From: Actinosynnema sp. ALI-1.44
GTDB lineage: Bacteria > Actinomycetota > Actinomycetes > Mycobacteriales > Pseudonocardiaceae
DNA: 64,000 nucleotides
Reading direction: 5' to 3'
Assembly (NCBI RefSeq): GCF_001984155.1
Contig: NZ_MTQO01000045.1
Span: 310,001-374,000, forward strand
In this document: positions 4,415-41,811 of the stretch, one piece after another
Position numbering within the stretch: the first letter of the stretch is position 1
How the letters are laid out: each line of letters opens with the position of its first letter
Program-made: the position numbers and the translations under genes
The notes under the pieces: model-generated
The model's input: the letters and a program-made list of their open reading frames with translations, nothing else
What the model was told of the DNA's origin: nothing
Databases searched by the model: none

Positions 4415-4489
4415 CGTCCGACGGTAGGCCAGGCGGCTACCGGTCCGGCATGGGTCAATTCTCCTAGGACAACCGCCTTCCCGTGAGGG

Positions 4490-11406: not shown

Positions 11407-11412
11407 CGCTTT

Positions 11413-12003: not shown

Positions 12004-12064
12004 CCCGCCCCCTAGACGCCGAACTCCGGTGCCTTCCCCATCGGCCCGGCGGGGCGACTATAAC

Positions 12065-12535
12065 TCAGCGGCGCTCACTGAGCGTTTCCATGGCAGCCCC
12101 GTGACCGAATCGTGTCACATGGTTGTCCACTTGGGCTGTGTTTCGCAGTTTTCCCAGCGCACGGTGCTGAACCAGCCGGACGGCGGCAGCAGCGATCCCC
12201 ACGGCCTGCGCGGTCTGCTCAGCGGTCAGCCCGCACAGCACACGCAGCACGATCACTTCCCGCTCGTCGGCCGGAAGAGCGGCGACGTCCAGCGCGGAAT
12301 CGGGGCAGCCAGGCGCGCCGTCCAGTTCTTTGTCAACCATTTCGGCGGCGATCCGGTAAGTGACCGCCAACAATGGATCATGCCCTTCGGGCAACGCGCG
12401 GAGAACGGCGTACAACGATTCACGCGCGACGAGGTCCGCGACCGCGAACGCCCCGTCCCGCCTGCCGATCCGCGCGCGGCAGTACCGCACCACAACAGGC
12501 TTGATCGTTCCGAGAACGATGGCACCGAGACTCAT
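12065..12535 (-). CDS. ECF RNA polymerase sigma factor, ShbA/SigD-like
   Basis: 156 residues. The N-terminus TIKPVVVRYCRARIGRRDGAF matches region 2.1 of the actinobacterial ShbA/SigD group. Residues about 88-132 are region 4.2 with a helix-turn-helix (GLTAEQTAQAVGIAAAAVR) and QHRALGKLR. ShbA proteins direct transcription of the principal sigma gene in streptomycetes. In region 2.2-2.4 the usual acidic helix is changed to VADLVARESLY and the linker is short, so this looks like a diverged paralogue. ATG 12535 was chosen for its GGGGAG ribosome site; an in-frame upstream extension to 12712 lacks one and looks non-coding. It lies 61 bases upstream of the NfeD-flotillin operon on the same strand. 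No anti-sigma gene is adjacent. Confidence 0.75.
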   Translation of the reverse strand: MSLGAIVLGTIKPVVVRYCRARIGRRDGAFAVADLVARESLYAVLRALPEGHDPLLAVTYRIAAEMVDKELDGAPGCPDSALDVAALPADEREVIVLRVLCGLTAEQTAQAVGIAAAAVRLVQHRALGKLRNTAQVDNHVTRFGHGAAMETLSERR

Positions 12536-12756
12536 GACGTCTCCCCGTGGCTTTCTCGACCAGTCAGGGATGAGACTGGCGAAAGGCCCCCGACTTACGC
12601 GACTTTCCAGGATTTCCTCAAGAAATACCCTGCGTGGCAACCCGATTTCGGGACGCGCCGGTAATACTCCACTCAGCCCATCGGGCACGCTAACAGGCTG
12701 ATAACTATTCACCCGAACCGCCGTTGCGCAGTTGATCTACGCGGTTCACTGCGCCC

Positions 12757-13167
12757 GTGAGGAACAAGGTCGCACTCGTGGCGGTGGTCGCGAGCACCGC
12801 AGGCGTGCTGATGGCGTGTTCGAGCAGCGAGTCCAAGTTCGCGGACGAACTCAAGGCAGCGGGCTTCGGAGCGGTGAAGCCGACTTCGGAGACGGAGAAG
12901 AAGACGAAGAAGGTCGGCGGCAAGACCGTGAAGACGAGCACGAAGGTGCTCGAGGCGGTCGTCCGGGTGAAGGGCTGCGACCTCGAGTTCGAGAAGGTCT
13001 CCGGTCAGTCCGGCTACTGGCTGGACGAGTTGCACGTCAACGGCCAGGAACCGGACTGGCCCGGCTACCCGGAGAACCTCCGCAAGCAACAAGTGGAGAA
13101 AATCTTCGCGGACAGCAGCGGCAAGCCGGACGGCTTCACAACCTGCTACAAACCCAACGAGCCCTGA
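12757..13167 (+). CDS. Small lipoprotein of unknown function
   Basis: 136 residues with a short signal peptide ending in a lipobox (VLMAC, Cys at about residue 21), so the mature protein should be lipid-anchored outside the membrane. The body is Lys-rich (a run of KKTKK residues near 50) with two further Cys that could form a disulfide. No domain is recognised. The GTG at 12757 is the start that places the signal peptide at the N-terminus. It is transcribed away from the sigma gene; the 12536-12756 interval between them is shared upstream sequence with no clear operator. Confidence 0.75.
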   Translation: MRNKVALVAVVASTAGVLMACSSSESKFADELKAAGFGAVKPTSETEKKTKKVGGKTVKTSTKVLEAVVRVKGCDLEFEKVSGQSGYWLDELHVNGQEPDWPGYPENLRKQQVEKIFADSSGKPDGFTTCYKPNEP

Positions 13168-13174
13168 CCAGCCC

Positions 13175-13980
13175 CAACCAGCTCGCGCGCAAGCGCAGAG
13201 CAGCCCGCAACGGCTCGCGCGCACAGCAGGCGGCTTGCGCGCAAGCACAGGCCAGCCCAGGTCGGCGAGCGAGCAAACGCACAGCAGGCGGCTTGCGCGC
13301 AAGCGCAGAGGTCGGCTTCGGGGGTGTCTCCTGCCCGTCGGCCTGGGCGAAGCCAACCACGGGCTGTCAGGAGGTCCGCCTACGACAATGGCGGGCCCAG
13401 CGATAGCTATACGGATCTCTTGACAGTCCGTGGTTCCCTGGGGCAGGTCGACGGGCAGGGGACACCCGCGCCCTGAAACCCCGGGACACGAAAAGCATGC
13501 GCGAGGACAACACCCCGCGACCCCTCCTGCTCAGAGGTCTGCCTCCCGGCGAGGGACCCCATCTTTTCAGGCCTGGGATCTCACGTTTCCGGGTCGATGA
13601 ACACGCCTCACTCCTGGTCAAGTCTGGGATCCTGACGGGGTGAAAAGACAGGCCCCTCGCCGGGAGCAGACCTCTGAGCAGGAGGTCTTCGCGCCGTGTT
13701 CCTCCCGGCGCATGTTTTTATGACCCGGGGTTCCAGGGCGCGGGCGCCTCCTGCCCGTCGACCTGCCCCAGGGAACCACGGACTATCAAGAGGATCGGTA
13801 TGGCTGTCGCTGGGGCTCTTTGGAGGCCGACCTCTTGACAGCCCATGGTTGGCTTCGCCCAGGCCGACGGGCAGGAGACACCCCCGAAGCACCACTCTGC
13901 GCTGACGCGCAGGCCCGTTGGGGTTGCTCTGCGCTTGCTTGCGAGCCGTTGCGGGCTGGGCTGCGCATGCGCGCGAGCAC
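13175..13980. repeat. Large nested imperfect inverted repeat, non-coding
   Basis: The left arm (about 13175-13566) is the inverted copy of the right arm (about 13640-13980) around a centre near 13600. Matching blocks include 13316-13379 with 13823-13889, 13412-13480 with 13730-13797, and 13520-13566 with 13638-13680. Each arm also contains an internal inverted pair, so a module of about 50 bases recurs four times in alternating orientation (around 13320, 13425, 13745 and 13835). Its cores are CTCCTGCCCGTCG and TTGACAGTCCGTGG. The outer flanks carry GCGCAAGCGCAGAG / GCAACGGCTCGCGCGC units found again near 60.0 kb. Short open frames here are by-products of the palindrome. No transposase is present. 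Confidence 0.85.
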
Positions 13981-14019
13981 CGTGGGGTGGTTCGGGTGGG
14001 CCACTCACGGGAACTAGGG

Positions 14020-14859
14020 TCAGCGGCTCAGGAATGCTTGCAGTCCGGCCAGGTCGTCTGTGTTGATGTGGTCGACGCCTGCCTTGCGCAGCTCGGTCCA
14101 GATCGCTTCACGCGCCGCACCGGGTGTGTCCGGGGTCGCCCAGAACCTGACCCGCTGACCTGCCTTGTGGGCGACGGAAACGATGTGACGCAACCGGTCT
14201 CGTTCCGCCGATGGGAACTCGCCGGTGCCGTTCCACGTGAACAGCGAGGTCCAGTTGTCGGACACGAGCGGGGTCATCCGGGCGTCCGACCCGGGGCCGA
14301 GGTCGTTCGGGTTCGCGATCCGGCCGTCGTAGAACGCCTGGCGGTACCGCTGCGAGGCCATCAGCTCACGGGGGCGGTCGCCGGAGATGACCGCGGTCAC
14401 CGGGCCGCGCAGCACGAAACCGTTGATGTACTGCGTGAACAGCAGGGGGTAGCGGCGCATGACCTTGTCCAACTCGGTGTACGCCGCCACGCCGTTGGTC
14501 TTGATGTCGATCAGCAGCTGGAAGGCGACCGGCTTGCCCCGGTACACCGATCCGCCGTTGGCCAGCACTCGCTTGTAGAGCGGGTCGAGGTAGAGCGACT
14601 GCAGGGTCCGCTCCGGCGTCAGGTCACCCGGGTCGTGGCCGACGAGCAGTTGGCCGTCGACCAGGTAGATGTCTGCTTCCACGCTCGTGAAGCCGTGGTC
14701 GAGCGCGTCGAACAGGGGGCGTTCGTGCTCGTAGTCGTTGTGCGCGTGTGCCTGCGGCAACGGGCGCACCTGGGGTTTGGCCGACGCGACCGCCGCGCTG
14801 CCGACAATCAGCGCGAACACGCTCAGAATCACTGTCACTAACCGCATGCGGATCACCAT
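14020..14859 (-). CDS. Secreted GDPD / PI-PLC-like phosphodiesterase
   Basis: 279 residues with an N-terminal signal peptide (hydrophobic to about residue 25, cut near ASA). The mature start HAHNDYEHERPL is followed by VEADIYLVDGQLLVGHD (residues about 60-77). These carry the His-Asn and Glu-x-Asp metal and substrate residues of the glycerophosphodiester phosphodiesterase / PI-PLC TIM barrel. The C-terminal FWATPD...WTELRKAGVDHINTDD is the closing barrel strand of this fold. It probably hydrolyses phosphodiester head groups or teichoic-acid-like polymers outside the cell; the substrate is unknown. ATG 14859 has an AAGG ribosome site; ATG 14847 is an alternative that shortens only the signal peptide. 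Confidence 0.8.
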   Translation of the reverse strand: MVIRMRLVTVILSVFALIVGSAAVASAKPQVRPLPQAHAHNDYEHERPLFDALDHGFTSVEADIYLVDGQLLVGHDPGDLTPERTLQSLYLDPLYKRVLANGGSVYRGKPVAFQLLIDIKTNGVAAYTELDKVMRRYPLLFTQYINGFVLRGPVTAVISGDRPRELMASQRYRQAFYDGRIANPNDLGPGSDARMTPLVSDNWTSLFTWNGTGEFPSAERDRLRHIVSVAHKAGQRVRFWATPDTPGAAREAIWTELRKAGVDHINTDDLAGLQAFLSR

Positions 14860-14952
14860 AGGCTGCCTTGAGCTGCGGAAACGTTAACGCTGGGCGAAGA
14901 GTTGCCGGGGTGGGCACTGGACGAGATCACCGATGCCGTGTGTAGCGGGTCT

Positions 14953-14967
14953 GTTACAGTCGCGCGC
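14953..14967 (+). promoter_or_regulatory. Probable leaderless promoter (-10 TACAGT)
   Basis: TACAGT at 14955-14960 lies 7 bases before the ATG at 14968, the spacing expected when transcription begins at the start codon. There is no Shine-Dalgarno sequence. The same GTTACAGTCG occurs at 52014-52023, upstream of the ABC-F gene. Confidence 0.4.
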
Positions 14968-15462
14968 ATGATCACCCGGATCGGCAGCCTGCGTACGGCC
15001 ATCGCGGTGGCCACCGGCATCCTCACCCTCTACATGGGACTTGTCGTCCTGAACAACGTCACCGACTTCCCCACCAACCGGGCGTTCGTCGAGCACGTCC
15101 TCGCGATGGACACCACGTTCCAGTCACCGAACACGATGTGGCGTGCGATCACCAGCTCCACCGTCGCCCTGCTCGTGTACATCGCGATCATCGTGTGGGA
15201 GGCGCTCACCGCGATCGTCCTCGGCATCGGGTTCGTCAAGGGTGTGCGTGGCAGCGACGGGGCTCGTTCCTACGGCACTGTCGGGTTCCTGATGATGATG
15301 GCGTTGTTCGGCGCGGGGTTCATCGCGATCGGCGGCGAGTGGTTCCAGATGTGGCAGTCGCAGCAGTGGAACGGCCTGCAGCCCGCCACGTTCAACTTCC
15401 TGATCGCGTCCGCCGGGCTGATCCTCACCCGATTGCATGACCGTGCACCCGACCGAACCTGA
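14968..15462 (+). CDS. DUF2165 small integral membrane protein
   Basis: 164 residues with four predicted membrane helices (about 8-30, 58-85, 105-130 and 140-158) and the DUF2165 signatures LYMGLVVLNNVTDF and GGEWFQMWQSQQWNG. Members are four-helix inner-membrane proteins of unknown role. The ATG at 14968 has a -10-like TACAGT only 7 bases upstream and no ribosome site, so translation is probably leaderless. It is a single gene, divergent from the phosphodiesterase and 74 bases before a methyltransferase on the same strand. Confidence 0.85.
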   Translation: MITRIGSLRTAIAVATGILTLYMGLVVLNNVTDFPTNRAFVEHVLAMDTTFQSPNTMWRAITSSTVALLVYIAIIVWEALTAIVLGIGFVKGVRGSDGARSYGTVGFLMMMALFGAGFIAIGGEWFQMWQSQQWNGLQPATFNFLIASAGLILTRLHDRAPDRT

Positions 15463-20282: not shown

Positions 20283-21803
20283 TCAACTGCGCCGGCAGGT
20301 GAAGCTGCCCGGCGCGTTCGGGTCGCCACCCTGGTACCTGGCCACCGACGGGTACAGGCACAGGTTCCGGCCGGCCTTGCCGTCGGCGGTCCGGGCGGGC
20401 AGCGTCCGCGGAGCCTCGCCCTTCTCGACCCAGTTCACCAGCGCCGCCATCGGGTCGACCGGGACCGCGCCGAGCCCACCGGAGCAGTGGTCGACGCCCG
20501 GCGCCAGGAAGACCCGGTAGAAGTCGTCCACGTTGCCCAGCCGGCGGCCGACGCGGTCGCGGTAGTCGACCGTGCCCTGGTACGGGATCAGCGCGTCGTC
20601 AGTCCCGTGCCAGGTGATCATCTTGCCGCCTGACCTGCGGAACGCGGACAGGTCAGGGTCGTCGGTGCCGATCACCGAGTGGTAGCGCGCCCGCGATTCG
20701 GCGAACACCCGGTAGTACTGCGCGTAGGACATCTTGCTCACGTCGAACCCCGGGTCGCGCTTGACGAAGTACTGCACCCACGTCGCCGAGATCTCGAACG
20801 GCGGCTGCCCGGCGACCCAGCCGAGGTCGGTGCCCTTGTTGAAGCCGTACCAACCGTGCGGGCCGTCCCAGATCTTGCGGATGACGTCGGCGTCCGCGCG
20901 CGAGACGACGACTTCCTTGCCGTCACAGACGATCTTGGTGCCGACCAGGTCGAAGGGGTTGTAGTGGCACGTCCTCGGGTCGTTGACCACGCGGTCGGCC
21001 ACGCCGTCGATCCGGTCACACGCGTCGACCGCCGCCTTCTCGAACGCGTCCAGCTCGCACTGCGAGAGCTGGTTGTGCTCCTCGTTCTGGACGACCGTCG
21101 GCCACAGGTCGGCGACGAGGAACCGGTCCCAGTTGATCGCGGGCGCGTTCGCGTTGATGCCGTCGTAGTCGTCCGGGTAGCGCTGGGCGTTCATCAGGCC
21201 CTGCCGCCCGCCCGTGGAGCAGCCGTTCCAGTACGAGTACGTCGCCGGGCGCCCGTAGAACTGGGCTGTCACGGCCTTGCCCGCGACAGCCATGTCGTGC
21301 AACGACCTGGAAGCGAAGTTGCGCAGCAGTTCAGTGTTGACGTTGCCGTTCGCGTCCAACGCCCACTTGCTCGGGTTGCTCGGATTCGAGTCGACGCCGC
21401 CGTCGGTCGTCGTGGCCGCGTAGCCCAGTTTGACCTGCTCGGCGAGCATCGCGTCCCAGGTGCCCATCGAGTAGCCGCCACCGCCGACGCCCTGGAACCG
21501 CCCGTTCCAACCGGTGGCGGGCAGCCATGCCCTGACCGTCACCTTGTCGCCGACGCCCGGATGCGTGAGCACTGCCGTGACCTCGCAGTACGGCGGGACG
21601 TTGGTGACCGGCGGGATGGGGAACCCCGGCGGGTACTCCACGGTCCCGCCCGGTTTGTCGACCGCCGTCACCGAGACGACCTCGGCGCCGGGAACTGCCG
21701 GCTTGCCCACCGCGCCACACCCCTGTGCGGCGGACGCGGTCGGCGCGGTGATCACGAACGTCGCGGAAACCAGCGCCACCATGGCGCCTACCAGTCGTTT
21801 CAT
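20283..21803 (-). CDS. Secreted tannase / feruloyl esterase family hydrolase
   Basis: 506 residues with a signal peptide cut near ASA (residue 25). It carries the CS-D-HC motif set of the tannase/feruloyl esterase family: nucleophile in YWNGCSTGGRQG, acid in WHGTDDALIPY and base in GVDHCSGG. The Cys residues next to Ser and His form the characteristic disulfide that joins the active site. The lid region (about 230-390) holds further Cys. It should cleave ester bonds of hydroxycinnamate or gallate conjugates in plant material. It is a single gene bounded by a strong hairpin, and fits the plant/chitin-degrading secretome of this region. Confidence 0.88.
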   Translation of the reverse strand: MKRLVGAMVALVSATFVITAPTASAAQGCGAVGKPAVPGAEVVSVTAVDKPGGTVEYPPGFPIPPVTNVPPYCEVTAVLTHPGVGDKVTVRAWLPATGWNGRFQGVGGGGYSMGTWDAMLAEQVKLGYAATTTDGGVDSNPSNPSKWALDANGNVNTELLRNFASRSLHDMAVAGKAVTAQFYGRPATYSYWNGCSTGGRQGLMNAQRYPDDYDGINANAPAINWDRFLVADLWPTVVQNEEHNQLSQCELDAFEKAAVDACDRIDGVADRVVNDPRTCHYNPFDLVGTKIVCDGKEVVVSRADADVIRKIWDGPHGWYGFNKGTDLGWVAGQPPFEISATWVQYFVKRDPGFDVSKMSYAQYYRVFAESRARYHSVIGTDDPDLSAFRRSGGKMITWHGTDDALIPYQGTVDYRDRVGRRLGNVDDFYRVFLAPGVDHCSGGLGAVPVDPMAALVNWVEKGEAPRTLPARTADGKAGRNLCLYPSVARYQGGDPNAPGSFTCRRS

Positions 21804-22756: not shown

Positions 22757-23266
22757 TCACCTGATGTTGACGTCGATGCACACGTAGAACGCGTTCGCGG
22801 TGTCCGCGATGTTCCACACGACGAGCATCTTCTGACGGCCCTTGAAGCTGCCGAGGTTCACGTTGTGCGTGAACGTCGAAGCCGGGCGAGCACCACCATC
22901 GCTCTTCGACCACACGCGGGTGCCACCGATGAAGTACTCCCACGTGCTGGTCGCGTGCGAGGCGGTGATCCGCCATGTGAAAGCCTGGTTCGAGCTGACG
23001 TCCTGGACCTGCCAGCCCAAGTTGTCGTTGTTCAGCTCGCTGAACCTGCCGACGTTGCCGTGGCAGTTGCGCAGACCCTTGGGGCCTTCGACGCTCTGCG
23101 GCTCGTACTTGATGCCGCCGCACTGGACGACGCCACGCTTGCACTGGTCCTGCCTGCTGGACGGGCTGGTGATCCATCCGTGTGCCGATGCCGTCCCGGG
23201 AAGGACGATGGCGAGCAGGGGTGCGATCAGAAGTCCGACAACGGCCGCGATGAAACTGCGCTTCAT
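22757..23266 (-). CDS. AA10 lytic polysaccharide monooxygenase, probably chitin-active
   Basis: 169 residues; signal peptide 1-28 ends at ASA, leaving His29 as the mature N-terminus (HGWITSPSSRQ). The second copper ligand is His104 (ITASHATSTWEYF), completing the histidine brace. Cys42, Cys49 and Cys68 plus a C-terminal Cys can form the usual disulfides. At 141 mature residues it is a small single-domain AA10 without a carbohydrate-binding module. AA10 enzymes oxidatively cut crystalline chitin or cellulose with copper and peroxide/oxygen. The DasR operator core about 100 bases upstream makes chitin/GlcNAc control, and so chitin as substrate, the better reading. Confidence 0.92.
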   Translation of the reverse strand: MKRSFIAAVVGLLIAPLLAIVLPGTASAHGWITSPSSRQDQCKRGVVQCGGIKYEPQSVEGPKGLRNCHGNVGRFSELNNDNLGWQVQDVSSNQAFTWRITASHATSTWEYFIGGTRVWSKSDGGARPASTFTHNVNLGSFKGRQKMLVVWNIADTANAFYVCIDVNIR

Positions 23267-23380: not shown

Positions 23381-23819
23381 ACTAACGTCCGACGTATCGG
23401 TCAAGAGATGGCAAAGCCGTACAGCTACTCGGCGTTCCCGACCGATTGGTGACGACCAGCGCTCGAGCATCGGTCCACAAGGTGAAAACACCGTTCGTCA
23501 CCGTACGTCAGTGTGCGCCACCGACCCGCCGCAACGGAAGAGGTGGACTGGACCAATTAGAAAACCTTGGCGCACTTGATCTCGGCGGTCGGCCCGACGA
23601 GCCGATTCCCTGTTATGGCACTGGGCCGAATGCAGCATTGACGGTCACTCCCCCTACCACTTGTATCGGGGACACGTCTACGCGTAGGCAGACCTTGACC
23701 CTGCACACGGTCCGATGCCGCCGGGCACGTCCAGCACGCGCCCGGCGAGCAGGGCTGTCCTGAGATCCGGCGTGCCCGCCCCATCACCCTGTCCGGGTGC
23801 GCCCTGTGGAGGACTGCTG
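23381..23819. other. Intergenic region upstream of the M4 protease
   Basis: No credible gene: open frames here lack ribosome sites and family features. The only structured element noticed is a 10-base palindrome CTACGCGTAG at 23678-23687, about 130 bases before the protease start, which could be an operator. A GGAGG ribosome site precedes the ATG at 23820. Confidence 0.5.
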
Positions 23820-25340
23820 ATGAAACGCAAGCGAGCGGGCCTGGCCGTGACCGCCAGTCTCGCGTTGGTCGTGTCCACGCTGACGGCACTGGCGCAAACC
23901 GCTCAGGCCGAGGAACTCGCCACCCAGGCGGCCGATCGCGCGGGTGTGGCGCTGGCGCAGAGCCCGGACGAAACGTTCCGCCGCGCGGCGACGACCGCCG
24001 GAGCCGCGGGACTGTTCTACTCGTCCTACCAACGGACCTACCGCGGACTCGACGTGGTCGGCGGCGACGCCGTGATCGTCACCGACGGCAAGGGAACCGT
24101 GCACGACCAGATCAAGGCCGACACCGCACGGATCAACGTCGGCACCCGGCCGGCCCTGACCGCGAGCACCGCACGGGACATCGCCCGCAAGCACCTGGGC
24201 TCGGTGGACAGGACGAGTGAACGGCTGGTCGTCCTCGCCGGTGAGCGGCCCGCATTGGCGTACGAAGTGGTACTCAACGGTTGGGCGGCCGAGCAGGTGC
24301 CCAGCGTGCTGCACGTCTACGTCGACGCGCACAGCGGTGCCGTGCTGGACAGCTGGGACGAGGTCAAAGCGGGAACCGGCAACAGCTTCTACAACGGCAA
24401 CCCGGTGACGATCAACACCCAGCAGAGCGGCAGCACGTTCTCGACCATCGACCCGACGCGCAACGGCGTCCGGTGTGCCCGGTCGAGCAACCAGCAGGTG
24501 TTCACCGGCCCCGACGACAACTGGGGCAACGGATCCGGCACCGACCTGGAAACGGCGTGCGTCGACGCGCTGTACGCCGCACAGAAGCAATGGGACATGC
24601 TGCGCAGTTGGCTGGGACGCAACGGCGTCGACGGCAACGGCCGTGGCTTCCCCGCCCTCGTGGGCCTCTCGGCCGTCAACGCGTTCTGGAACGGCAGCGC
24701 GGCTTCGTTCGGCCGCTCGCGTGACGGACAGCGGCAAGTCGTCCCGATGGACGTGGTGGCGCACGAGTTCGGCCACGGCATCTTCCAGTTCACGCCGGGC
24801 GGATCGAGCGGCGGCGGCAACGAGAAGGGCGGGCTGAACGAGTCGACCGGTGACATCTTCGGCGCGTTGACCGAGCACTTCGCCAACAACTCGAACGACC
24901 CGCCGGACTACGAGGTCGGCGAAGAGGTCAACCTGGTCGGCAACGGCCCGATCCGGTTCATGCACCAGCCTTCGCAGCGCAACCACCCGAACTGCTTCAG
25001 CTCGTCCATCCCGAACACCGAGGTGCACGCGGCCGCGGGCCCGCAGAACCACTGGTTCTACCTGCTCGCCGAGGGCACCAGCCCCGGTGGCGGCAAGCCG
25101 AACAGCCCGACGTGCAACAACACCACGATCACCGGCATCGGCATCCAGAAGGCGGGCCAGGTCTTCTACAACGGCCTGCTGCGCAAGACCGCGACGTGGA
25201 CGCACGCACGCGCCCGTGTCGCCACTCTCCAGGCGGCCAAGGCGATCTTCCCCGGCAGTTGCGCCGAGTTCGACGTCACCAAGGCCGCGTGGGCGGCGGT
25301 GAGCGTCCCGGCGCAGTCAGGCGAGCCCGCCTGCCCGTGA
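23820..25340 (+). CDS. Secreted M4-family (thermolysin-like) metalloprotease
   Basis: 506 residues. Signal peptide about 1-30 (cut near AQA), then a propeptide with an FTP/PepSY-type inhibitor region up to about residue 190. The catalytic domain has the zinc motif HEFGH (His315, Glu316, His319), the third ligand Glu341 in NESTGDIFG, and the downstream His in GPQNHWFY. The start is fixed by GGAGG 8 bases upstream of ATG 23820. Secreted as a zymogen, it would self-mature and degrade proteins with a preference for bulky hydrophobic residues, as family members do. Six Cys in the catalytic part suggest disulfides, more than in thermolysin itself. Confidence 0.92.
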   Translation: MKRKRAGLAVTASLALVVSTLTALAQTAQAEELATQAADRAGVALAQSPDETFRRAATTAGAAGLFYSSYQRTYRGLDVVGGDAVIVTDGKGTVHDQIKADTARINVGTRPALTASTARDIARKHLGSVDRTSERLVVLAGERPALAYEVVLNGWAAEQVPSVLHVYVDAHSGAVLDSWDEVKAGTGNSFYNGNPVTINTQQSGSTFSTIDPTRNGVRCARSSNQQVFTGPDDNWGNGSGTDLETACVDALYAAQKQWDMLRSWLGRNGVDGNGRGFPALVGLSAVNAFWNGSAASFGRSRDGQRQVVPMDVVAHEFGHGIFQFTPGGSSGGGNEKGGLNESTGDIFGALTEHFANNSNDPPDYEVGEEVNLVGNGPIRFMHQPSQRNHPNCFSSSIPNTEVHAAAGPQNHWFYLLAEGTSPGGGKPNSPTCNNTTITGIGIQKAGQVFYNGLLRKTATWTHARARVATLQAAKAIFPGSCAEFDVTKAAWAAVSVPAQSGEPACP

Positions 25341-27516: not shown

Positions 27517-29346
27517 ATGTGGTCGAATTCGCCGCGATGGCGAAAAACCGTGATCGGCGCGGCGGCGAGCCTGCTCGCCGTCGGCGCGCTGACCTACAGC
27601 GGTGCCAGTAGTACCGCGTACGCCGACGTCAAGACCTTCGTCGACGCGCGCAAAGGGTCCGACGGCAAGCAGTACTGGGTCAAGAACCACCTGGTCACCA
27701 GCCAGGTGAGGGCCGCGGCGGGCCAGCGCAAGAAGTGGCTGCTGGTCTGGGCCGGTGACGAGAACATCGCCGACACGCTGGTCAAGGACCTCAAGAACCT
27801 GCCGGGTTCCCTGGCGGGCGGGCTCAACAAGGCGACCAACGCCCTGCCGGGCCCGGACTTCCTCGCCGTCATCGACGCCACCGAGGGCTCACCCGCGTAC
27901 GGCAAGGTCGTCAACACCGCCACAGTCGGCCCGCTCGTGGAGAACGAGCCGCACCACATGCAATACGTGTGGCACAAGGGCGACACCATCTACGCGGGTG
28001 CGCTGTTCGCCGCCGCGACCTACACGTTCGACGTCTCCGCGCTGCCCGAGTTGAAGCTCAAGGGAATCAGCCTGCCGACGAACACGCTCGGCGGCTCGGT
28101 GCCCGACGCGTACTGGACGCTGAAGGACGGTACCGCGTACGGCACCTACATGGGCGGTCCGGTCGTGCCGGGCCCGCACGTCTACGCCAACGGTCAAACC
28201 GTTGTGGGCAACGGTTTCGCGGGCAGCCCCGGCGCGTTGATCCGGTTCGACCGGACTGGCAAGGTGCTGTCGCAGACGTCGGCAGCGACACCGCAGGGCG
28301 ACAACGAGAAGCTGTGCGCGAACCTGCCGAGGCTCGGCAAACCCACATGTGCCAACCCGCACGGGATCCAGGCTCGTGAAGACCTCAACACGTTGGTGAC
28401 CAGCGACTACGCCGAGCCGCGCACCATCATCCTCGACCCGGTCAAGGCCCCGTCGCCGTACCTGCGGCGGCCGACCGTCCGCACATGGGACATCACCGAG
28501 CGGGACAAGCCGAAGCTGCGGGCGGTGTCGTACCTGCAGGACGGCCCGCGTGCCGACCCCGCCGACCCGCTGCACCAGGAAAGCCGTGCGGTCATGGAGA
28601 CCACTGTGACCAACCTGCCTGGTCACAAGGGCGCGTTCGCCCAGACCATGCAGGGCGGTGCGGTGCACTACACGCCGGACATCACGGCCCCGAACCCCAA
28701 GTGGGTCGAGGTGTTCGACGACGGCGCCGCGAACAAGGCGATCCACCCGGGCAACGACTCCAACGGCGGCGGGTCCAACGGCGGCTGGATCCAGACCAGC
28801 CCGGACGACAAGTACCTGTACCGCGCGATCTCCGGGCGCGGCAAGGGTGCGCTCGGGCCGGACGACCCCGGCACGACCGGTGGCGTGTACGTGCTGGACA
28901 TCCAGAAGCTGCTGGCAGCGGGCACGAGCTTCCAGTGCCGGATCGACACCCTCGAAGAGGCACGCGGCGGTGGCGCGGAGGCCGACTGCCCGACCGTTGC
29001 CGGTGCCGCGCCGATCAACCCCGGTCAGCCCGCGGCGGGACCGCACTGGGGCGCGTACGACAACTTCAAGCTCGGCGAGGACGGTTTCTACCACGAGACC
29101 ACGTCTCCCGAGCGCCTGGCGGTGTCGAACTACTTCGTCGCGCGGACCGGGCTCGACGGTGACCACAAGGTCAACATTCTCAAGCTGGGCAAGGACGGCA
29201 AGCTCGCACTGGACACCGCGTTCAAGGACGAGTTCACCGGCCAGACCGGCATCAACTTCAACCGCAAGCAGTGGCCGCACGGCGCCTTCGGCAACGCCAA
29301 GCCGCACTCGGAGCTGTTCGTCATCGCGGACGCGGATGTGAAGTGA
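27517..29346 (+). CDS. Secreted SBP56 / methanethiol oxidase-like beta-propeller protein
   Basis: 609 residues; signal peptide about 1-35 (cut near AYA). The block DFLAVIDATEGSPAYGKV then NEPHHMQY and TYTFDVSALPELKLKGI follows the order of selenium-binding protein 56 (SELENBP1, bacterial MtoX): a (D/Y)LA-x-(I/V)D...SP-x-Y start, a paired His and a Y-x-(F/V)DV strand. A further His sits in CANPHGIQAREDL, where the family has copper-binding His. The extracellular location matches copper loading outside the cell. MtoX oxidises methanethiol to formaldehyde, sulfide and peroxide; here that is inference because the protein is a distant member. It leads an operon-like run with a membrane protein, two secreted peptides and a YeeE/YedE-type transporter. 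Confidence 0.75.
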   Translation: MWSNSPRWRKTVIGAAASLLAVGALTYSGASSTAYADVKTFVDARKGSDGKQYWVKNHLVTSQVRAAAGQRKKWLLVWAGDENIADTLVKDLKNLPGSLAGGLNKATNALPGPDFLAVIDATEGSPAYGKVVNTATVGPLVENEPHHMQYVWHKGDTIYAGALFAAATYTFDVSALPELKLKGISLPTNTLGGSVPDAYWTLKDGTAYGTYMGGPVVPGPHVYANGQTVVGNGFAGSPGALIRFDRTGKVLSQTSAATPQGDNEKLCANLPRLGKPTCANPHGIQAREDLNTLVTSDYAEPRTIILDPVKAPSPYLRRPTVRTWDITERDKPKLRAVSYLQDGPRADPADPLHQESRAVMETTVTNLPGHKGAFAQTMQGGAVHYTPDITAPNPKWVEVFDDGAANKAIHPGNDSNGGGSNGGWIQTSPDDKYLYRAISGRGKGALGPDDPGTTGGVYVLDIQKLLAAGTSFQCRIDTLEEARGGGAEADCPTVAGAAPINPGQPAAGPHWGAYDNFKLGEDGFYHETTSPERLAVSNYFVARTGLDGDHKVNILKLGKDGKLALDTAFKDEFTGQTGINFNRKQWPHGAFGNAKPHSELFVIADADVK

Positions 29347-29348
29347 CC

Positions 29349-31046
29349 ATGGAGCACTCGCACGGTGGTGTGCCGGTCGAGGTGTCGTCCGCGTGGCCGC
29401 TCTGGCTGCGCTTGACGCTGGTCCTGACAACGGCGTTCGTCGCCGGGATCGGGTTCGCCCAGTCCGGTGTGTTGTCACGGCGCCTGCGTGCGTCGACAGT
29501 TCTGCTGGCCGCCGCGTCGGCCGCGCTGGCATTGATGTCCATTGTGGCTGTCAACGTCAACGTGTTCGGCGCGCTCGGTCACGCCGTACTGGTCAGCACG
29601 GTCTCGTTGCTGCTGGGCAAGCCCCGGTTCGCCAGGTGGGCGGCGGGCGCGCTGATCGTGCTGCTGGTGGCAGAGACGACCGGGTGGACCGCCGGCGAGG
29701 GCTCTTCACTGCAATTGGTGCTGGACACGGCTTACGTGGTCGCGGCGGTCGTGTGGCTCGGGCACGCCGCGCTCGACCGGAGCCGCCCGCTGTGGGTGTT
29801 CGGCGGTGTCCTGGTGGTGGCCGGGGTGATCAGGGTCGGTACGTCCGGGCTGGCGCTCGACCGACGGCTCTACACGACCTCGCTCGGTCTGGTCCTGCTG
29901 GCCGCCACCCTCGTCCCGGTGATCGGGATCGTGCTGTCCCGCAAGAGGACCGCTCAGAACACAGCCGGATACACGGCGGGCGCGGTCGCGGTGGCGCTGG
30001 TGGCGTGGAGTGCCGCCGCGGCCGTTCCGGTTCCGCCGGAACTGCCCGTTCCCGGTGTCCCCGTCCTGGTCGAGGCCAACGTCGCGGGACAGCGGGTGCC
30101 TGTGCTGATCAGTCCGCACCGACCGGGGCGCAATCTGGTGCACGTCCCGGCGAGCGCGGGCGACGTACAGGTCAGTACGCCGGGCAGCACACCGGTCCAG
30201 GCATCGCCGATCGCGGGCGCGGAAGGGGCGTGGGCCGAGGTCGACCTGCCCTCGGGGCGTGGCGAGGTGGTGCTGGCCAAGGGTTCCGCGTCGGCTTCGG
30301 TCGGTGTGGACACCGGTGACCAGCCGGGCCCGTCCCTCGCGACAGGAGTGGACGGTCCCGAGTGCGCCAGTGCCGCGCTGGGCGGTTTGGTCGCCGGGGT
30401 CCGCCAGGTGCTGGCGCGGTGCCCGGCGGACGCGCTGTCCGATGAGGACGCGGACGCGTTGCGCAAGGTGGTCACGTTCCTGAATTCCCGAGGCGTCAAG
30501 GGGATCACTCTCGTCTCGGACGACTCCGGGCGGAGTGTCCGCGCGGCGGCGGTGGTTCGGGAAGCGGCCGCGAACGCGGGGATCCGGATCGGCGGGGATC
30601 CCCGGCAGGACAGCGCACTGGTCGCGGTCTCCGGGTGGTCGGTCGCGGCGGGCACACTGCCGAGGATCGCCGCGCAGCAGGCGGAGACACCGATCCACCC
30701 CCACGGGATCTACGTGGCCCCGTGGCTGTTGAACACCCCCATCGGCACGTCCGTCACCACGTTCTCGGTGCCGCTGCGGTTCGACCCGCGAGAGGAGTCG
30801 GCTGTGTCCTACGCGGTCACGCTCGGCAACAGGTTCGGCGGTGAAAGCCCCACGATCGCCGGTTTCCACGCGTGGCGCGGGTCGGTCCCGAGCACCGGGG
30901 CGCAGATCTACGCCGTGGCACAGGTGACCGCGATGCCCATGGGACCGGGCGAGGTGCACGCGCCCGGGATGCCGATGACCGAAGAGCTGGCAGGGCAGTG
31001 GATCGCCAAGGCCACCGTTGTGCCTGTCAGTGCCCAACTCGATTGA
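29349..31046 (+). CDS. Polytopic membrane protein with large extracytoplasmic domain
   Basis: 565 residues, starting 2 bases after the upstream stop. The His-rich N-terminus MEHSHGG could bind metal. About eight hydrophobic helices follow to residue 240; one stretch (DTAYVVAAVVWLGHAAL) resembles CopD-type copper membrane proteins. The rest (about 240-565) is outside the membrane. Part of it (KGITLVSDDSGRSVRAAAVV) reads like a periplasmic-binding-protein type 1 fold. The C-terminus is rich in Met and His (TAMPMGPGEVHAPGMPM), a pattern seen in copper sites. The name is unknown to me. Translational coupling to the SBP56-like gene suggests that it loads copper into, or shuttles electrons from, that protein. 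Confidence 0.7.
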   Translation: MEHSHGGVPVEVSSAWPLWLRLTLVLTTAFVAGIGFAQSGVLSRRLRASTVLLAAASAALALMSIVAVNVNVFGALGHAVLVSTVSLLLGKPRFARWAAGALIVLLVAETTGWTAGEGSSLQLVLDTAYVVAAVVWLGHAALDRSRPLWVFGGVLVVAGVIRVGTSGLALDRRLYTTSLGLVLLAATLVPVIGIVLSRKRTAQNTAGYTAGAVAVALVAWSAAAAVPVPPELPVPGVPVLVEANVAGQRVPVLISPHRPGRNLVHVPASAGDVQVSTPGSTPVQASPIAGAEGAWAEVDLPSGRGEVVLAKGSASASVGVDTGDQPGPSLATGVDGPECASAALGGLVAGVRQVLARCPADALSDEDADALRKVVTFLNSRGVKGITLVSDDSGRSVRAAAVVREAAANAGIRIGGDPRQDSALVAVSGWSVAAGTLPRIAAQQAETPIHPHGIYVAPWLLNTPIGTSVTTFSVPLRFDPREESAVSYAVTLGNRFGGESPTIAGFHAWRGSVPSTGAQIYAVAQVTAMPMGPGEVHAPGMPMTEELAGQWIAKATVVPVSAQLD

Positions 31047-31059
31047 CACGGAGGAACTG

Positions 31060-31248
31060 GTGCGCAAAGCAGTGATCGTCGCGATCTCAGTCCTTGGACT
31101 GAGCCTCGTGACCGGTGGCGTCGCCGCCGCCGAGACACCAGTCTGGGTGTTGCCCGGAGTGGATCTCGGCAGCGTGCTGGCGCCGACAACCGGCCTGCCC
31201 CAGGCCATCGCCCCGGTGTTCGACCTGCTCAAGCTGGTCGGCGGCTGA
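31060..31248 (+). CDS. Small secreted peptide A
   Basis: 62 residues: a signal peptide of about 24 (MRKAVIVAISVLG... cut near AAA) and a mature peptide of about 38 that is hydrophobic, Pro/Leu-rich and free of Cys. GGAGG precedes the GTG start at 31060. A related peptide gene follows 11 bases after its stop. No family is recognised; the tight linkage and good ribosome site support a real gene. Confidence 0.7.
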   Translation: MRKAVIVAISVLGLSLVTGGVAAAETPVWVLPGVDLGSVLAPTTGLPQAIAPVFDLLKLVGG

Positions 31249-31259
31249 AAGGAAGTCAG

Positions 31260-31457
31260 ATGAGGAAGACCATCACGGCGGTCGCCGCGGCGCTGCTGGT
31301 GCTGAGCGCGACCCCGGCAACGGCCGACCCGGTGATCGTGGACGAACCGGACACCAGCGACCTGACCACCACGTGGACGTTCGCCCCGCTCGGCGTCCCG
31401 GTGTTCGGCCTGATCCAGTCGATCGTCAAGGCACCGAACGGAATCATCCCGAACTGA
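31260..31457 (+). CDS. Small secreted peptide B
   Basis: 65 residues: signal peptide about 1-22 (cut near ATA) and a mature part of about 43 with an acidic start (DEPDTSD) and a hydrophobic C-terminus (GVPVFGLIQSIV). AAGGAAG precedes the ATG. Like peptide A it begins MRK, has no Cys, and carries a similar Pro-Val/Leu-Phe-x-Leu core, so the two are probably diverged duplicates. A GC-rich hairpin follows. Confidence 0.7.
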   Translation: MRKTITAVAAALLVLSATPATADPVIVDEPDTSDLTTTWTFAPLGVPVFGLIQSIVKAPNGIIPN

Positions 31458-31470
31458 GTCCACTCCGAGT

Positions 31471-31492
31471 CCCAGCCGCCCCCGCGGCTGGG
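31471..31492 (+). terminator. Intercistronic 9-bp hairpin
   Basis: CCCAGCCGC (31471-31479) pairs with GCGGCTGGG (31484-31492) around CCCC. There is no T-run, so it may be a partial terminator or an RNA-processing stem that separates expression of the small peptides from the downstream transporter. Confidence 0.6.
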
Positions 31493-31520
31493 GCTCTCCC
31501 CATCAGGACAGGAGGTCCCG

Positions 31521-32771
31521 GTGACCACCCCCGCGGACACACAGCTGTTCCCCACCTCGTGCGCCGCGCCGGTGCCGCGGCCGTCCGAGCCGGTCAAGGT
31601 CGTCCCGCTCGCGGTCGCCGGACTGCTGGCGGCGGGACTGACCTGGTACGTCTCGGCTTCGTTCGGCGTGAAACCGGCCGTACTGCTCATCCTGGGGCTG
31701 GGTCTCGGGCTCGCGCTGTTCCACTCGCGGTTCGGGTTCACTTCCGCGTGGCGCCAGCTGATCGCGGTCGGCAACGGCCAGGGCCTGCGGGCGCACACGC
31801 TGTTGCTCGGCACTGCCGCCACGCTGATCGCGTTGATCATCTCGACCCGGTCCGGGCTGTTCGGCTCGGTTCCCCAGGCCACCGGCGGACCGCTCGGCGT
31901 TGCGTTGTTGGTCGGCGCGGTGCTGTTCGCCATCGGCATGCAACTCGGCGGCGCGTGCGCGTCCGGCACGCTGTTCGCGGTCGGCTCAGGACAGTCCACG
32001 ATCGTGTTGACACTCGGCGGTTTCATCGCCGGGTCGGTCTTCTACACATGGGCTTTCCCGCTGTTCGACGGATGGCCCGCGCTGCCGGGTGTGCTGCTGG
32101 CCGATCACGTCGGCTGGCTCGGCTCGTGGCTGATCACGGTCGGTGTGCTCGTGGCGATCGTGTGGATCACCAAACTGGTGCAGGCCCGGCGCAATCCGCC
32201 GCCGGTCGACGTGGTGCCGACCGCGCGCGGGGTAGCCCGTGTGCTGCGCGGCTCGTGGCCGGTGCTCGTCGGCGCGGTCGTGCTCGGCGTGCTCGCCGCC
32301 GCTGTTTTCCTGGTGTCCGGTGGGATCTGGGGCATCACGTCCGCGTTCGCGCTGTGGGGCGCCAAACTGCTCCAGCTGTTCGGGGCGCACCCGGAGACGT
32401 GGGAGTTCTGGCGGTCGGGTGCGAACGCGAAGTCGCTGGCCGCACCGATCTGGACGGACAAGACCAGCCTGACCAACATCGGCATCATGATCGGCGCGGC
32501 GGTCGCGGCCGCGGCGGCCGGTGCGTGGAAGATCCACAGCCAGATCCCGTGGCGCACCGCCGTCGCCGCCCTGCTCGGCGGTGTCATGATGGGAATCGGC
32601 GCCCGGCTGGCCGGCGGCTGCAACATCGGCGCCTACCTCGGCGGCATCTCGGTCGGCAGCCTGCACGGCTGGCTGTGGGGGCTGTTCGCGCTCGGCGGCA
32701 CGTGGATCGGCCTGCGGCTGCGCCCCCTGTTCGGCCTCGGCAACCCCAAGCCGTCGGACAGCGTCTGCTGA
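31521..32771 (+). CDS. YeeE/YedE-family sulfur-compound transporter
   Basis: 416 residues with about ten membrane helices in two related halves. Each half carries the family motif with a conserved Cys: GGACASGT (near residue 135) and GGCNIGAY (near 365). These are the residues that pass thiosulfate in characterised YeeE. GGAGG precedes the GTG start at 31521. It should import thiosulfate or a related sulfur species. Its place behind the SBP56-like protein, whose relatives release sulfide, suggests capture of sulfur made outside the membrane. The link is inferred from gene order only. Confidence 0.85.
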   Translation: MTTPADTQLFPTSCAAPVPRPSEPVKVVPLAVAGLLAAGLTWYVSASFGVKPAVLLILGLGLGLALFHSRFGFTSAWRQLIAVGNGQGLRAHTLLLGTAATLIALIISTRSGLFGSVPQATGGPLGVALLVGAVLFAIGMQLGGACASGTLFAVGSGQSTIVLTLGGFIAGSVFYTWAFPLFDGWPALPGVLLADHVGWLGSWLITVGVLVAIVWITKLVQARRNPPPVDVVPTARGVARVLRGSWPVLVGAVVLGVLAAAVFLVSGGIWGITSAFALWGAKLLQLFGAHPETWEFWRSGANAKSLAAPIWTDKTSLTNIGIMIGAAVAAAAAGAWKIHSQIPWRTAVAALLGGVMMGIGARLAGGCNIGAYLGGISVGSLHGWLWGLFALGGTWIGLRLRPLFGLGNPKPSDSVC

Positions 32772-32926: not shown

Positions 32927-33982
32927 ATGCAGGAAATCACCGGAATTCTCGACATAGTGGACGGCAAAGCGCATGTCCGGGCGGAGGGCTACCTGCCCGG
33001 CCCGGACGACGTCCAAGTCCCCGTCGGACTGGTCCGCAAGCACGGCATGCGCCGCGGCGACACGGTCAGCGGCAGTACCGACGGCCACAAACTCACCGCG
33101 GTCGAACACGTCAACGGCCAGGCACCGCGCCAACGCCCCGACTTCGCCGACCTGGTCACCATCCACCCCGACGAACGGCTCAGGCTGGAAACCGAGCAGC
33201 ACGAGCTGACCACCAGAACCCTCGACCTGCTCATGCCGGTCGGCAAGGGCCAGCGGGCGCTGATCGTCGCCCCACCGAAAGCGGGCAAAACCATGGTCCT
33301 GCAAGCGATCGCGCACGGCATCGCGAAGAACCACCCGGAATGCCACCAGATGCTGCTGCTGATCGGCGAACGCCCCGAGGAGGTCACCGACTTCGCCAGG
33401 GCGGTGCCCGGCGAGGTGATCGCCGCCACCTTCGACCTGCCGCCCCGCCAGCACGTCGCCATCGCCGAACTGGCCGTCGAACGGGCCAAACGGCTCGCGG
33501 AAGCGGGCAAGGACGTGGTGATCGTGATGGACTCGCTGACCAGGCTCGGCCGTGCCTACAACCTGGGTGCGCCCGCGAACGGCCGGACATTGACCGGAGG
33601 TGTCGACTCCGGCGCGCTCGTGCACCCGAAACGCCTGCTCGGCGCGGCCCGCAACATCGAGAACGGCGGCTCGGTCACCATCTTCGCCACCGCGCTCGTG
33701 GAAACCGGCTCGATGGGCGACAGCGTGATGTTCGAGGAGTACAAGTCCACGGGCAACGCCGAGGTCAGGCTGGACCGCGGGCTCGCGAACAAGCGGATCT
33801 TCCCCGCGATCGACCCCGGTCAGACCAGCACCCGCCGCGAAGACCTGCTGCTGACGCCCCAGGAGCAGGTGGCGACCAGGGTCGTGCGACGCGCGCTGCA
33901 CGACCGCGACATCACTGTTCTGCTCGACAAGCTGCGTCAGACGCAGACCAATGCGGAGTTCATGAGCAGGCTCCAGCACTGA
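32927..33982 (+). CDS. Short Rho-type transcription termination factor paralogue
   Basis: 351 residues. It keeps a shortened cold-shock-like RNA-binding domain (GYLPGPDDVQVP, residues 20-32, then GMRRGDTVSG) and the full hexameric ATPase core. The core shows Walker A APPKAGKT (about 114-121), Walker B DSLTRLGRAYN, GGVDSGAL, ARNIENGGS and the Q/R-loop region EEYKSTGNAEVRLDR. It lacks the N-terminal helix bundle and the large Arg/Asp-rich insertion of main actinobacterial Rho proteins, which exceed 600 residues. It is therefore probably a second, specialised Rho, with the housekeeping gene elsewhere. ATP-driven RNA release is likely because all core motifs are present. Its stop overlaps the convergent glycosidase gene by 23 bases. 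Confidence 0.85.
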   Translation: MQEITGILDIVDGKAHVRAEGYLPGPDDVQVPVGLVRKHGMRRGDTVSGSTDGHKLTAVEHVNGQAPRQRPDFADLVTIHPDERLRLETEQHELTTRTLDLLMPVGKGQRALIVAPPKAGKTMVLQAIAHGIAKNHPECHQMLLLIGERPEEVTDFARAVPGEVIAATFDLPPRQHVAIAELAVERAKRLAEAGKDVVIVMDSLTRLGRAYNLGAPANGRTLTGGVDSGALVHPKRLLGAARNIENGGSVTIFATALVETGSMGDSVMFEEYKSTGNAEVRLDRGLANKRIFPAIDPGQTSTRREDLLLTPQEQVATRVVRRALHDRDITVLLDKLRQTQTNAEFMSRLQH

Positions 33983-40952: not shown

Positions 40953-41766
40953 TTACAGCCACTCGTTGATGGCTGCGATGAGCACGGTCGCCTCGTAGCG
41001 GACCGCGAGCTTGTCGTATCGCGTGGCGACGGCACGATGCCTCTTGAGGCGGTTGATCCCGCACTCGACCGCATGACGCTCCCGGTAGTCGAACGGGTCG
41101 AAACGCGGCGACCGGCCGCCGCGGGAGCCAAGCTTCTGGCGGTTGCGCACCTGGTCGGCCTTGTCGGGGATGGTGCAACGGATCCCGCGGCGGCGCAGAT
41201 AGGCGCGATTCCTGCGGGAGGCGTACGCCTTGTCAGCGCACACGCGATCAGGACTGCGGCGAGTCCCCGCGCTGCCCAGCGGTCACCACGATCGACATGG
41301 GCTTTTGGCGCTGCTCGACGGCCAGATGCAGTTTGGTGGTGAACCCGCCGCGCGAACGTCCCAGCCCATGATCATTGGGTTCGGCGAACACATCGCCCGG
41401 CGGCTCTTTCTGCAGTTCACCCTGCTTCCGGGCCCCGGCCGCATGCTGATGGGCGCGGCACACCGTGGAGTCAATGCTCAGGTCCCCCACGATCGCACCT
41501 TCCGCATCGGCCAGGCACTGGAGGTGGCTGAGGATCCGGTGCCAGGTGCCGTCCCGCTGCCATCGGCGGAACAGATCGTAGATCCGGCCCCACGGCCCGC
41601 ACTCGACAGGCACGTCCCGCCACGGAACACCGGTCCGCACCCGAAACCGTATGCCGTTGATCAGCTGCCGCCGCGACCAGACCGGCGGCCGTCCCGCCTT
41701 CGTCCCCTTCGGCAACAGCGGCTCCAGCACCGCCCACTGTTCGTCCGTGAGATCTCCCCGTGCCAT
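40953..41766 (-). pseudogene. IS5-family transposase, internally deleted and frameshifted
   Basis: The 5' part (from ATG 41766) encodes LTDEQWAVLEPLLP, the DUF4096-like N-terminus, and the first Asp block SIDSTVCRAHQH. It ends at a stop after GQRGDSPQS near 41250. The 3' part, in another frame, continues with [14 protein letters not shown] (second Asp) and [16 protein letters not shown] (Glu). Related transposases carry about 20 more residues between these parts. A deletion with frameshift therefore separates the DDE residues and the enzyme is probably dead, unless frameshifting rescues it. Confidence 0.8.
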
Positions 41767-41811
41767 GAACCATGACCATTCATCACTCAAGATCCACTTT
41801 AGACACACGGC

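Follow-up and report, generated by a model that had tools for sequence, protein, structure and literature searches.

A conserved five-gene cluster in actinobacteria, with a remote SBP56-superfamily protein and a YeeE-type transporter, that looks like a route to sulfur from outside the cell

A cluster of five genes occupies positions 27517-32771 of a 64,000 nt stretch of contig NZ_MTQO01000045.1 of Actinosynnema sp. ALI-1.44 (RefSeq assembly GCF_001984155.1, contig positions 310,001 to 374,000; the whole stretch is termed the window). The genes encode an apparently secreted protein related to SBP56 (called SBP here), a membrane protein (MEM), two small predicted secreted peptides (PEP1 and PEP2) and a transporter of the YeeE/YedE family (YED). 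They form a conserved cluster with linkage far above chance, and the set looks like an undescribed route to sulfur from outside the cell. The reading that we favour, to which we give somewhat less than an even chance, is that the locus encodes a copper oxidase of the cell envelope that acts on an organosulfur compound with recapture of the sulfur, i.e. extracytoplasmic sulfur salvage. An earlier reading of the same DNA, made from the sequence alone (the sequence-only reading), had placed five genes together at these coordinates, and all five frames are indeed present on the + strand, with successive gaps of 2, 13, 11 and 63 nt. The features of the locus are:

27517-29346 (+), gene for the SBP-like secreted protein; 609 aa; from the open reading frame call, profile and AlphaFold2 (AF2) model
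29349-31046 (+), gene for the membrane protein MEM; 565 aa; from the open reading frame call, AF2 model and profile alignment
31060-31248 (+), PEP1, small secreted peptide precursor; GTG start, 62 aa; motif W-x-x-P-G-x-D-x-G
31260-31457 (+), PEP2, small secreted peptide precursor; 65 aa; motif VDEPDTS..TFAPLGVPV.GL
31467-31496 (+), RNA hairpin of 13 bp in the PEP2/YED spacer; no U-tract; terminator- or attenuator-like
31521-32771 (+), YED, YeeE/YedE-family transporter; GTG start, 416 aa; PF04143

The cluster recurs in other genomes. A scan of genome contigs gave 95 confirmed relatives of SBP, and the locus counts rest on the best 80 of these 95; seven of the 80 loci have less than 6 kb downstream and were excluded from the gene-order count, so that 73 remain. 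The genes in the relatives are GC3-based predictions with unverified starts, and some alignment rows (A1/A2) may have wrong N-termini. MEM is the next gene after SBP in 71 of the 73 loci, both peptide genes are found in 61 and YED in 35. The YED-bearing loci fall into eight arrangements that differ in order, strand or content, the arrangement MEM-YED-PEP1-PEP2 being present in 15 (11 from Saccharopolyspora and four from Kutzneria) and PEP1-PEP2-YED in seven. YED lies on the opposite strand in eight of the 35 and is therefore not a fixed member of an operon. That the gene set is kept together despite its changing order is good evidence for a single function.

Linkage was also counted in 200 genomes of the same family; these counts and the associated Fisher tests ignore kinship and are descriptive only, with coordinates transcribed by hand. 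SBP is found in 74 of the genomes (including two with fragments only, G137 and G139, and two with a split gene, G066 and G187), PEP2 in 59 and PF04143 in 109. PEP2 lies within 10 kb of SBP in every one of the 59 genomes that have it. Of the 74 SBP-positive genomes 66 have YED somewhere, and in 49 of the 74 it lies no more than 10 kb from SBP. It is present in 58 of the 59 PEP2-positive genomes, compared with 51 of the remaining 141.

SBP has a signal-type N-terminus, which by eye ends at AYA followed by DV. The single sequence scores 15.5 bits against PF05694 (curated cut-off 34) and 22.2 bits against the NCBIfam model for the methanethiol oxidase MtoX, NF052453 (cut-off 650), and a search of the PDB with it returned nothing; structural matches at the sequence level came from profiles only. 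The best PDB sequence for a profile of 32 SBP relatives is 2ece, SBP56 of Sulfolobus (E 0.02). PF05694 is matched weakly by 31 of the 32 relatives (best 1.7e-6), and comparison of their profile with that of 16 actinobacterial SBP56 proteins using hhalign gave 94.8% with E 5e-8 over 395 columns. The AF2 model (pLDDT 82.8, pTM 0.84) is beta-propeller-like, and its best match in the PDB by Foldseek is again 2ece (E 5e-16), followed by the lactonising enzyme 1jof (2.3e-11). Since profile, profile-profile and fold evidence agree while the scores fall below the cut-offs, the homology to SBP56 is firm but distant, and on this evidence SBP is a remote member of the SBP56 superfamily, lying outside the known family. 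No match to PF05694 above its cut-off was found anywhere in the genome of the window. The sequence-only reading had called the 609-residue protein SBP56-like, an assignment that was to fall if no profile-level match existed; such a match exists, so the assignment stands as remote homology, though not at the level of the Pfam cut-off.

The active site probably departs from that of the known family. SELENBP1 activity is reported to need each of six residues, His73, His74, His137, His140, Asp189 and Glu252 (PMC10362175), of which SBP, by alignment, keeps three. The histidine pair His73-His74 corresponds to His146-His147 of SBP, invariant in all 32 relatives and also in all four more distant rows of the alignment (four of eight distant rows passed the motif filter). 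Glu361, which is also invariant, is aligned to Glu253 in the SBP56 proteins from actinobacteria, a residue that is equated with Glu252 of SELENBP1 by an inferred transfer of numbering. The other three residues are missing. The position of Asp189, with the human numbering transferred in the same way, aligns with Pro281, beside the invariant His282. Every SBP in an alignment of 129 sequences is reported to have an HxxHC metal motif (PMC10277263). HxxH is absent from SBP, no two histidines being three apart in the whole 609 aa; the corresponding region of the alignment reads TNTL, or DAYW in an alternative register that is favoured by eye. Five further histidines, His282, His510, His550, His588 and His597, are invariant in all 32 relatives. 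Among the four more distant rows His510 and His597 are kept in four, His282 and His550 in three and His588 in one. The loss of three of the six SELENBP1 residues indicates that the metal site differs, and the pattern of conservation suggests that SBP probably has a metal site other than that of SBP56. Without HxxH the name MtoX is unsuitable for this protein.

The assignment of YED to its family is clear, with 195.7 bits against PF04143 (cut-off 27). Alignment with the YeeE structures of S. thermophila places Cys91 of YeeE at Cys146 of YED and Cys293 at Cys367; the exit cysteine, Cys22, is replaced by Gly72. This position is Gly in all 35 SBP-linked YED proteins. The last residue (Cys416 in the YED of the window, encoded just ahead of the stop codon at 32769-32771) is Cys in all 35 linked proteins and in 19 of 19 unlinked ones, 54 long PF04143 proteins altogether, the latter set being drawn from 20 loci, of which L175 has no predicted YED; the exit-cysteine pattern was not found in L177, and shorter PF04143 proteins fall outside the set. 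As the C-terminal Cys is also present in YED proteins far from any SBP cluster, it is a trait of a transporter subfamily and not of the cluster. Cys22 of YeeE reportedly sits where this protein meets YeeD, and a cysteine of YeeD is the proposed receiver of the ion (PMC11073785). No match to TusA/YeeD was found in the genome of the window or in any of 12 others (13 of 13 negative), and 11 of 14 control genomes were positive. We infer that YED may work by a TusA-free mechanism involving its C-terminal Cys. The thiosulfate specificity earlier proposed for the transporter is not borne out, since YED lacks the exit cysteine and the searches for TusA/YeeD were negative.

A tree of 67 YED proteins (75 rows before removal of near-identical ones, with the linked or free labels of L104-L133 assigned by hand) contains two deep clades, each of which mixes linked with free proteins. 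This tree calls for at least 10 changes of the linked label, and well-supported branches force seven of them. With linked members in both clades, the position in the cluster has been filled by two lines of transporter. No common neighbours of the unlinked YED genes were seen by eye.

We considered whether the locus might be a true MtoX system, in which a methanethiol oxidase frees sulfide or sulfane sulfur and YED is a thiosulfate importer. SBP belongs to the right superfamily, with the histidine pair and a Glu at the position of SELENBP1 Glu252, and is apparently exported, as is reported for MtoX (PMC5739008). Yet HxxH is lacking, the NCBIfam MtoX score is 22 of 650 bits and the transporter has neither the exit Cys nor a detectable TusA. 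The sequence-only reading, which had compared SBP with MtoX, had itself remarked that the usual MtoX partners SCO1/SenC and MauG were absent; such partners are common but not obligatory. This agrees with our search of the whole genome, in which SCO1 had no match at E 0.01; no mauG-type gene was noticed among the conserved neighbours, the genome not having been searched for one. We regard identity with MtoX as improbable, and methanethiol as the substrate is likewise not supported.

A second link to sulfur comes from a different group of loci. Six plasmid records, all from Streptomyces and two of them probably the same plasmid, carry SBP with a MEM-type neighbour, annotated as hypothetical; the surroundings of five of the six were inspected. 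In pSA3239, NBC_01276 and NBC_00158 the SBP-MEM pair is flanked on one side by cysH, cysC, cysD, a gene for a GTP-binding protein and a sulfonate-type ABC transporter, and on the other by a nitrite/sulfite reductase, with a sirohydrochlorin chelatase nearby. The fourth region contains cysD alone, and the fifth has no annotated sulfur gene but contains a sulfite-reductase-like stretch detected by tblastn. The same layout of cys genes surrounds SBP-MEM in Saccharothrix yanglingensis, where no match to cysC was found. In a further Streptomyces (Isolate_45) the locus has cysH on a short contig, and in Amycolatopsis anabasis an NMT1/SsuA-type ABC transporter is divergent from SBP. Thus genes for sulfur transport or assimilation are repeatedly linked to SBP, and this is supported by independent links, two through the YED clades and one through the clade with cys genes. 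The sulfur context seen by the sequence-only reading is upheld.

MEM has no Pfam or NCBIfam match at E 0.1. DUF6239 is matched by five of 26 MEM relatives, and no paper on this domain was found in a literature search that left most subscription journals outside its scope. The AF2 model (pLDDT 89.0) has about eight long N-terminal helices (residues 15-223), followed by a beta-sandwich (~236-322) and an alpha/beta domain (~330-525). We take the helices to be CopD-like membrane helices, and the alpha/beta domain resembles LivK-type or type-1 periplasmic-binding proteins (PBP) by a weak fold match (best Foldseek E 5.6e-3). Cys339 and Cys358 are invariant in all 26 relatives. MEM had earlier been described as rich in Met and His. 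Its composition is ordinary in this respect (2.8% His + Met), and the idea of a His/Met-rich copper sponge was dropped; what survives of the description is a Met-x-Met motif close to the C-terminus (in the final 75 residues), present in 65 of 77 MEM proteins.

The best clue to the kinship of MEM came from distant loci. SBP was found in 10 of 396 actinobacterial genomes searched, and seven of these hits are far relatives. In six of the seven (the exception being L197) the next gene starts with a CopC-type sequence. Five of these six partners were searched against Pfam: CopC was found in all five (8e-12 to 6e-17), CopD also in five, two of them just below cut-off, and a periplasmic-binding domain in four (7.5e-14 to 9e-17); FixH was matched in two of the five, below cut-off. 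The MEM profile aligns with these five proteins at 96.3% and E 1.5e-9. The alignment spans the CopD part and the beta-sandwich that follows and stops where the binding-protein part begins, and the CopC part is missing from MEM, which is best seen from this comparison as a CopD-PBP protein without CopC. Copper is therefore supported by kinship with CopC-CopD proteins and not by composition, and to that extent the earlier description of MEM as a copper-type membrane partner gains support. The distant partners (L192-L196) are themselves unusual, being proteins of ~950-990 aa that have CopC, CopD and, in four of five, the periplasmic-binding domain in one chain, encoded directly after a distant SBP56-like gene. 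We know of no description of such a CopC-CopD-PBP fusion, and no literature search was aimed at the fusion alone.

The same evidence could be taken to indicate a system for copper acquisition or homeostasis, in which MEM is a CopD-type importer, SBP a copper store or cupric reductase and YED incidental. CopC and CopD in the distant partners, the alignment of MEM with their CopD part and the lack of an SCO1 match in the genome of the window would all be consistent with this. It is difficult to reconcile with the recurrent association with cys genes and with YED of two clades, and a domain of ligand-binding-protein type would be unexpected for plain copper import. We consider such a system quite unlikely.

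The two small frames are real genes, as judged from substitutions relative to K. philippinense (L084), whose SBP is 95% identical to that of the window. By codon position 1/2/3 the substitutions number 28/18/156 in SBP and 118/57/247 in MEM, and 9/3/23 and 8/4/27 in PEP1 and PEP2 respectively. Changes are thus mostly at third positions, and the sequence comparison indicates that both PEP1 and PEP2 are under coding constraint. The peptides of the window contain neither Cys nor His, so that a relay of sulfur or copper by them is unlikely; a structural or regulatory role is our guess. Comparison of the PEP1 and PEP2 profiles gave 91% with E 1e-6, but much of the alignment is signal peptide, so that the two are no more than possible paralogues. 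The tie of two small secreted proteins to the locus (PEP2 in 59 of 59 genomes, both peptides in 61 of 73 loci) and the PBP-like domain of MEM could also fit a non-enzymatic SBP, a propeller that gives structure to, or binds a ligand in, an assembly of the envelope or surface that includes the peptides, with MEM as a sensor-like receptor. However, SBP has many invariant His, Asp and Glu residues and belongs to a superfamily of enzymes, and a non-enzymatic propeller would leave the sulfur linkage without explanation. It seems to us a poor candidate.

The favoured reading, an envelope copper oxidase with sulfur recapture, can be set out as a sequence of steps. The propeller of SBP would be exported, given its N-terminus, and MEM would anchor it at the membrane and load it with copper through the CopD-like part, as its kinship with CopC-CopD proteins suggests. 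The periplasmic-binding-protein-like part of MEM might bind a substrate or a signal. Outside the membrane, copper-loaded SBP would then oxidise a thiol or some similar reduced organosulfur compound, a step suggested by the superfamily and by the links to sulfur genes. By analogy with methanethiol oxidases (MTOs), some of which are reported to free sulfane sulfur (PMC10936201), the oxidation may break a C-S bond or release sulfane or reduced sulfur. YED would import the reduced sulfur so freed without TusA/YeeD, perhaps via its C-terminal cysteine, as family knowledge and the account of zero-valent sulfur import by YeeE-like proteins (PMC11582611) would allow, and the linkage in Streptomyces suggests that the sulfur could enter the assimilation pathway. 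PEP1 and PEP2 might serve this envelope assembly as subunits with a structural or regulatory task. The observed part of this is the gene content, conservation, linkage, homology and lack of motifs, whereas copper loading, catalysis, the substrate, the roles of the peptides and the direction of transport belong to the model. A more specific form of this proposal is possible, though we think it less likely than not: a sulfur-acquisition machine, of which we found no description, comprising a new family of copper-propeller oxidase with a metal site unlike that of SBP56, a CopD-PBP copper receptor that loads or gates it, two new families of small secreted protein, and a TusA-free YeeE-type importer whose C-terminal Cys replaces the exit Cys and the YeeD acceptor.

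A number of observations weigh against the favoured reading. To the altered metal site (the absent HxxH, Pro281 in place of Asp189) may be added the weak fold match of the MEM alpha/beta domain, the low His and Met content of MEM, which has no CopC domain and no Pfam match of its own above cut-off, and the FixH matches in the distant partners, which fall below cut-off and occur in two of five. YED is more than 10 kb away or on another contig in 17 of the 66 genomes that have both SBP and YED, and no YED was found at E 1e-10 in eight of the 74 SBP-positive genomes. The cys-linked loci form a single clade and so represent one evolutionary event. The clade of the window lacks this link: the 70 loci L015-L084 gave no match to the cys pathway save weak GTPase matches to CysN in six, and an SsuA-type match is present in just two. 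Finally, the SBP paralogues of the window's genome (L102 and L103, on contig C48), along with L204 and L091, lie in natural-product-like surroundings, and L102 and L103 have no adjacent MEM.

These surroundings imply that the SBP family may have a broader chemistry. An NDP-hexose 2,3-dehydratase is encoded near L102 and L204 and a class-V aminotransferase near L103 and L204, and genes resembling glycosyltransferases and esterases were seen by eye near the paralogues. SBP could accordingly be an exported enzyme that tailors or detoxifies small metabolites (thiols, glycosides or lactones of natural-product type), with the adjacent sulfur genes serving a general need. The lactonising enzyme 1jof as second-best fold match would suit such a role, as would the SARP regulators and MFS pumps carried by the five Streptomyces plasmid regions. 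Against this, the clade of the window's SBP is separate from that of the paralogues (support 100/99 and 100/100), its conserved neighbours are the five-gene set and not biosynthetic genes, and the paralogue clade itself includes sulfur-assimilation loci. The tree behind this has labels set by hand (L009-L012 were put under other, their flank being too short to judge YED); L082, L195, L206, L207 and L211 were missed by the motif filter, and the rooting depends on long branches, chiefly that of L197. We think the tailoring role unlikely. We note separately that in L204 (positions 1256-14995) two class-V aminotransferase-family proteins and a homocysteine S-methyltransferase are encoded close to MEM and to SBP genes in tandem; this may be a cluster for a sulfur-containing natural product.

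The five genes had been supposed to form one jointly expressed unit. They are not unlinked. However, the hairpin in front of YED, together with the changes in its strand, means that the five genes are in general unlikely to share one transcript, and YED is probably expressed at least partly apart from the other four genes. A 71-nt region that includes this hairpin folds at -39.1 kcal/mol (z -3.79). By eye a clear hairpin is present in seven of the nine PEP2/YED-type regions folded, including that of the window (relatives folded without shuffles); that of L071 is unclear and L018 has none. A scan for sigma-70 promoters gave no match.

Directly downstream of the cluster is a short-form Rho paralogue (32927-33982, +; NCBIfam NF041509 paralog_Rho2, 581.5 bits, cut-off 628), for which L084 gave the only tblastn match among loci L001-L094. 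Upstream lie a tannase/feruloyl esterase (20283-21803, -), a lytic polysaccharide mono-oxygenase, LPMO_10 (22757-23266, -), and an M4 metalloprotease (23715-25340, +). An IS4/5-type transposase is split over two adjacent frames at 40953-41808 (-).

In the literature search, with the scope given above, methanethiol oxidase and YeeE were met together only in work on Hyphomicrobium regulators. Nothing was found that joined YeeE, thiosulfate and selenium-binding protein, or CopC, CopD, periplasmic binding protein and selenium-binding protein, or SBP56 with Amycolatopsis. The group of actinobacteria concerned includes antibiotic producers. If the favoured reading is true, these organisms own an extracellular route to organic sulfur that depends on proteins now annotated as hypothetical in the plasmid records inspected. 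The metal site and the CopC-CopD-PBP partner would offer a test case for the chemistry of the SBP56 superfamily, on which there is still dispute, and YED would suggest a mode of action for YeeE-type importers without YeeD/TusA. PEP1 and PEP2 would then define two peptide families with an unusually clean genomic tie to one function.

Each part of the cluster may be compared with a known system. SBP resembles MtoX, SBP56 and SELENBP1 in superfamily profile, 2ece fold, signal-type N-terminus, histidine pair and a Glu that aligns with the Glu252 position. It differs from MtoX and SBP56 in scores far below cut-off, in the lack of HxxH and in its other invariant histidines, and is ~130-165 residues longer than the 16 aligned SBP56 proteins. 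YED shares PF04143 and two of three cysteines (those at C91 and C293) with the thiosulfate transporter YeeE/TsuA, and differs from YeeE/TsuA with YeeD/TsuB in the Gly at Cys22, the C-terminal Cys and the absence of a TusA/YeeD match. It is of the same family as the SoxT, PmpAB and YedE importers of zero-valent sulfur; YeeE-like proteins are said to import sulfur in this form, some bacteria using the family beyond thiosulfate assimilation (PMC11582611). No sox, hdr or rhodanese-type partner was noticed among the conserved neighbours of the YED clusters, where no profile search for them was made. MEM aligns with the CopD part, and the beta-sandwich after it, of the CopC-CopD-PBP proteins that hold the same gene position in distant relatives; from CopC/CopD (YcnJ-type) copper proteins it differs in having a fused type-1 periplasmic-binding-protein-like domain, no CopC part and no Pfam match. 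Taken in this way the cluster is a variation on a known theme, that of a copper oxidase of the SBP56 superfamily with YeeE-type transport, and there is a real chance that it is a new system.

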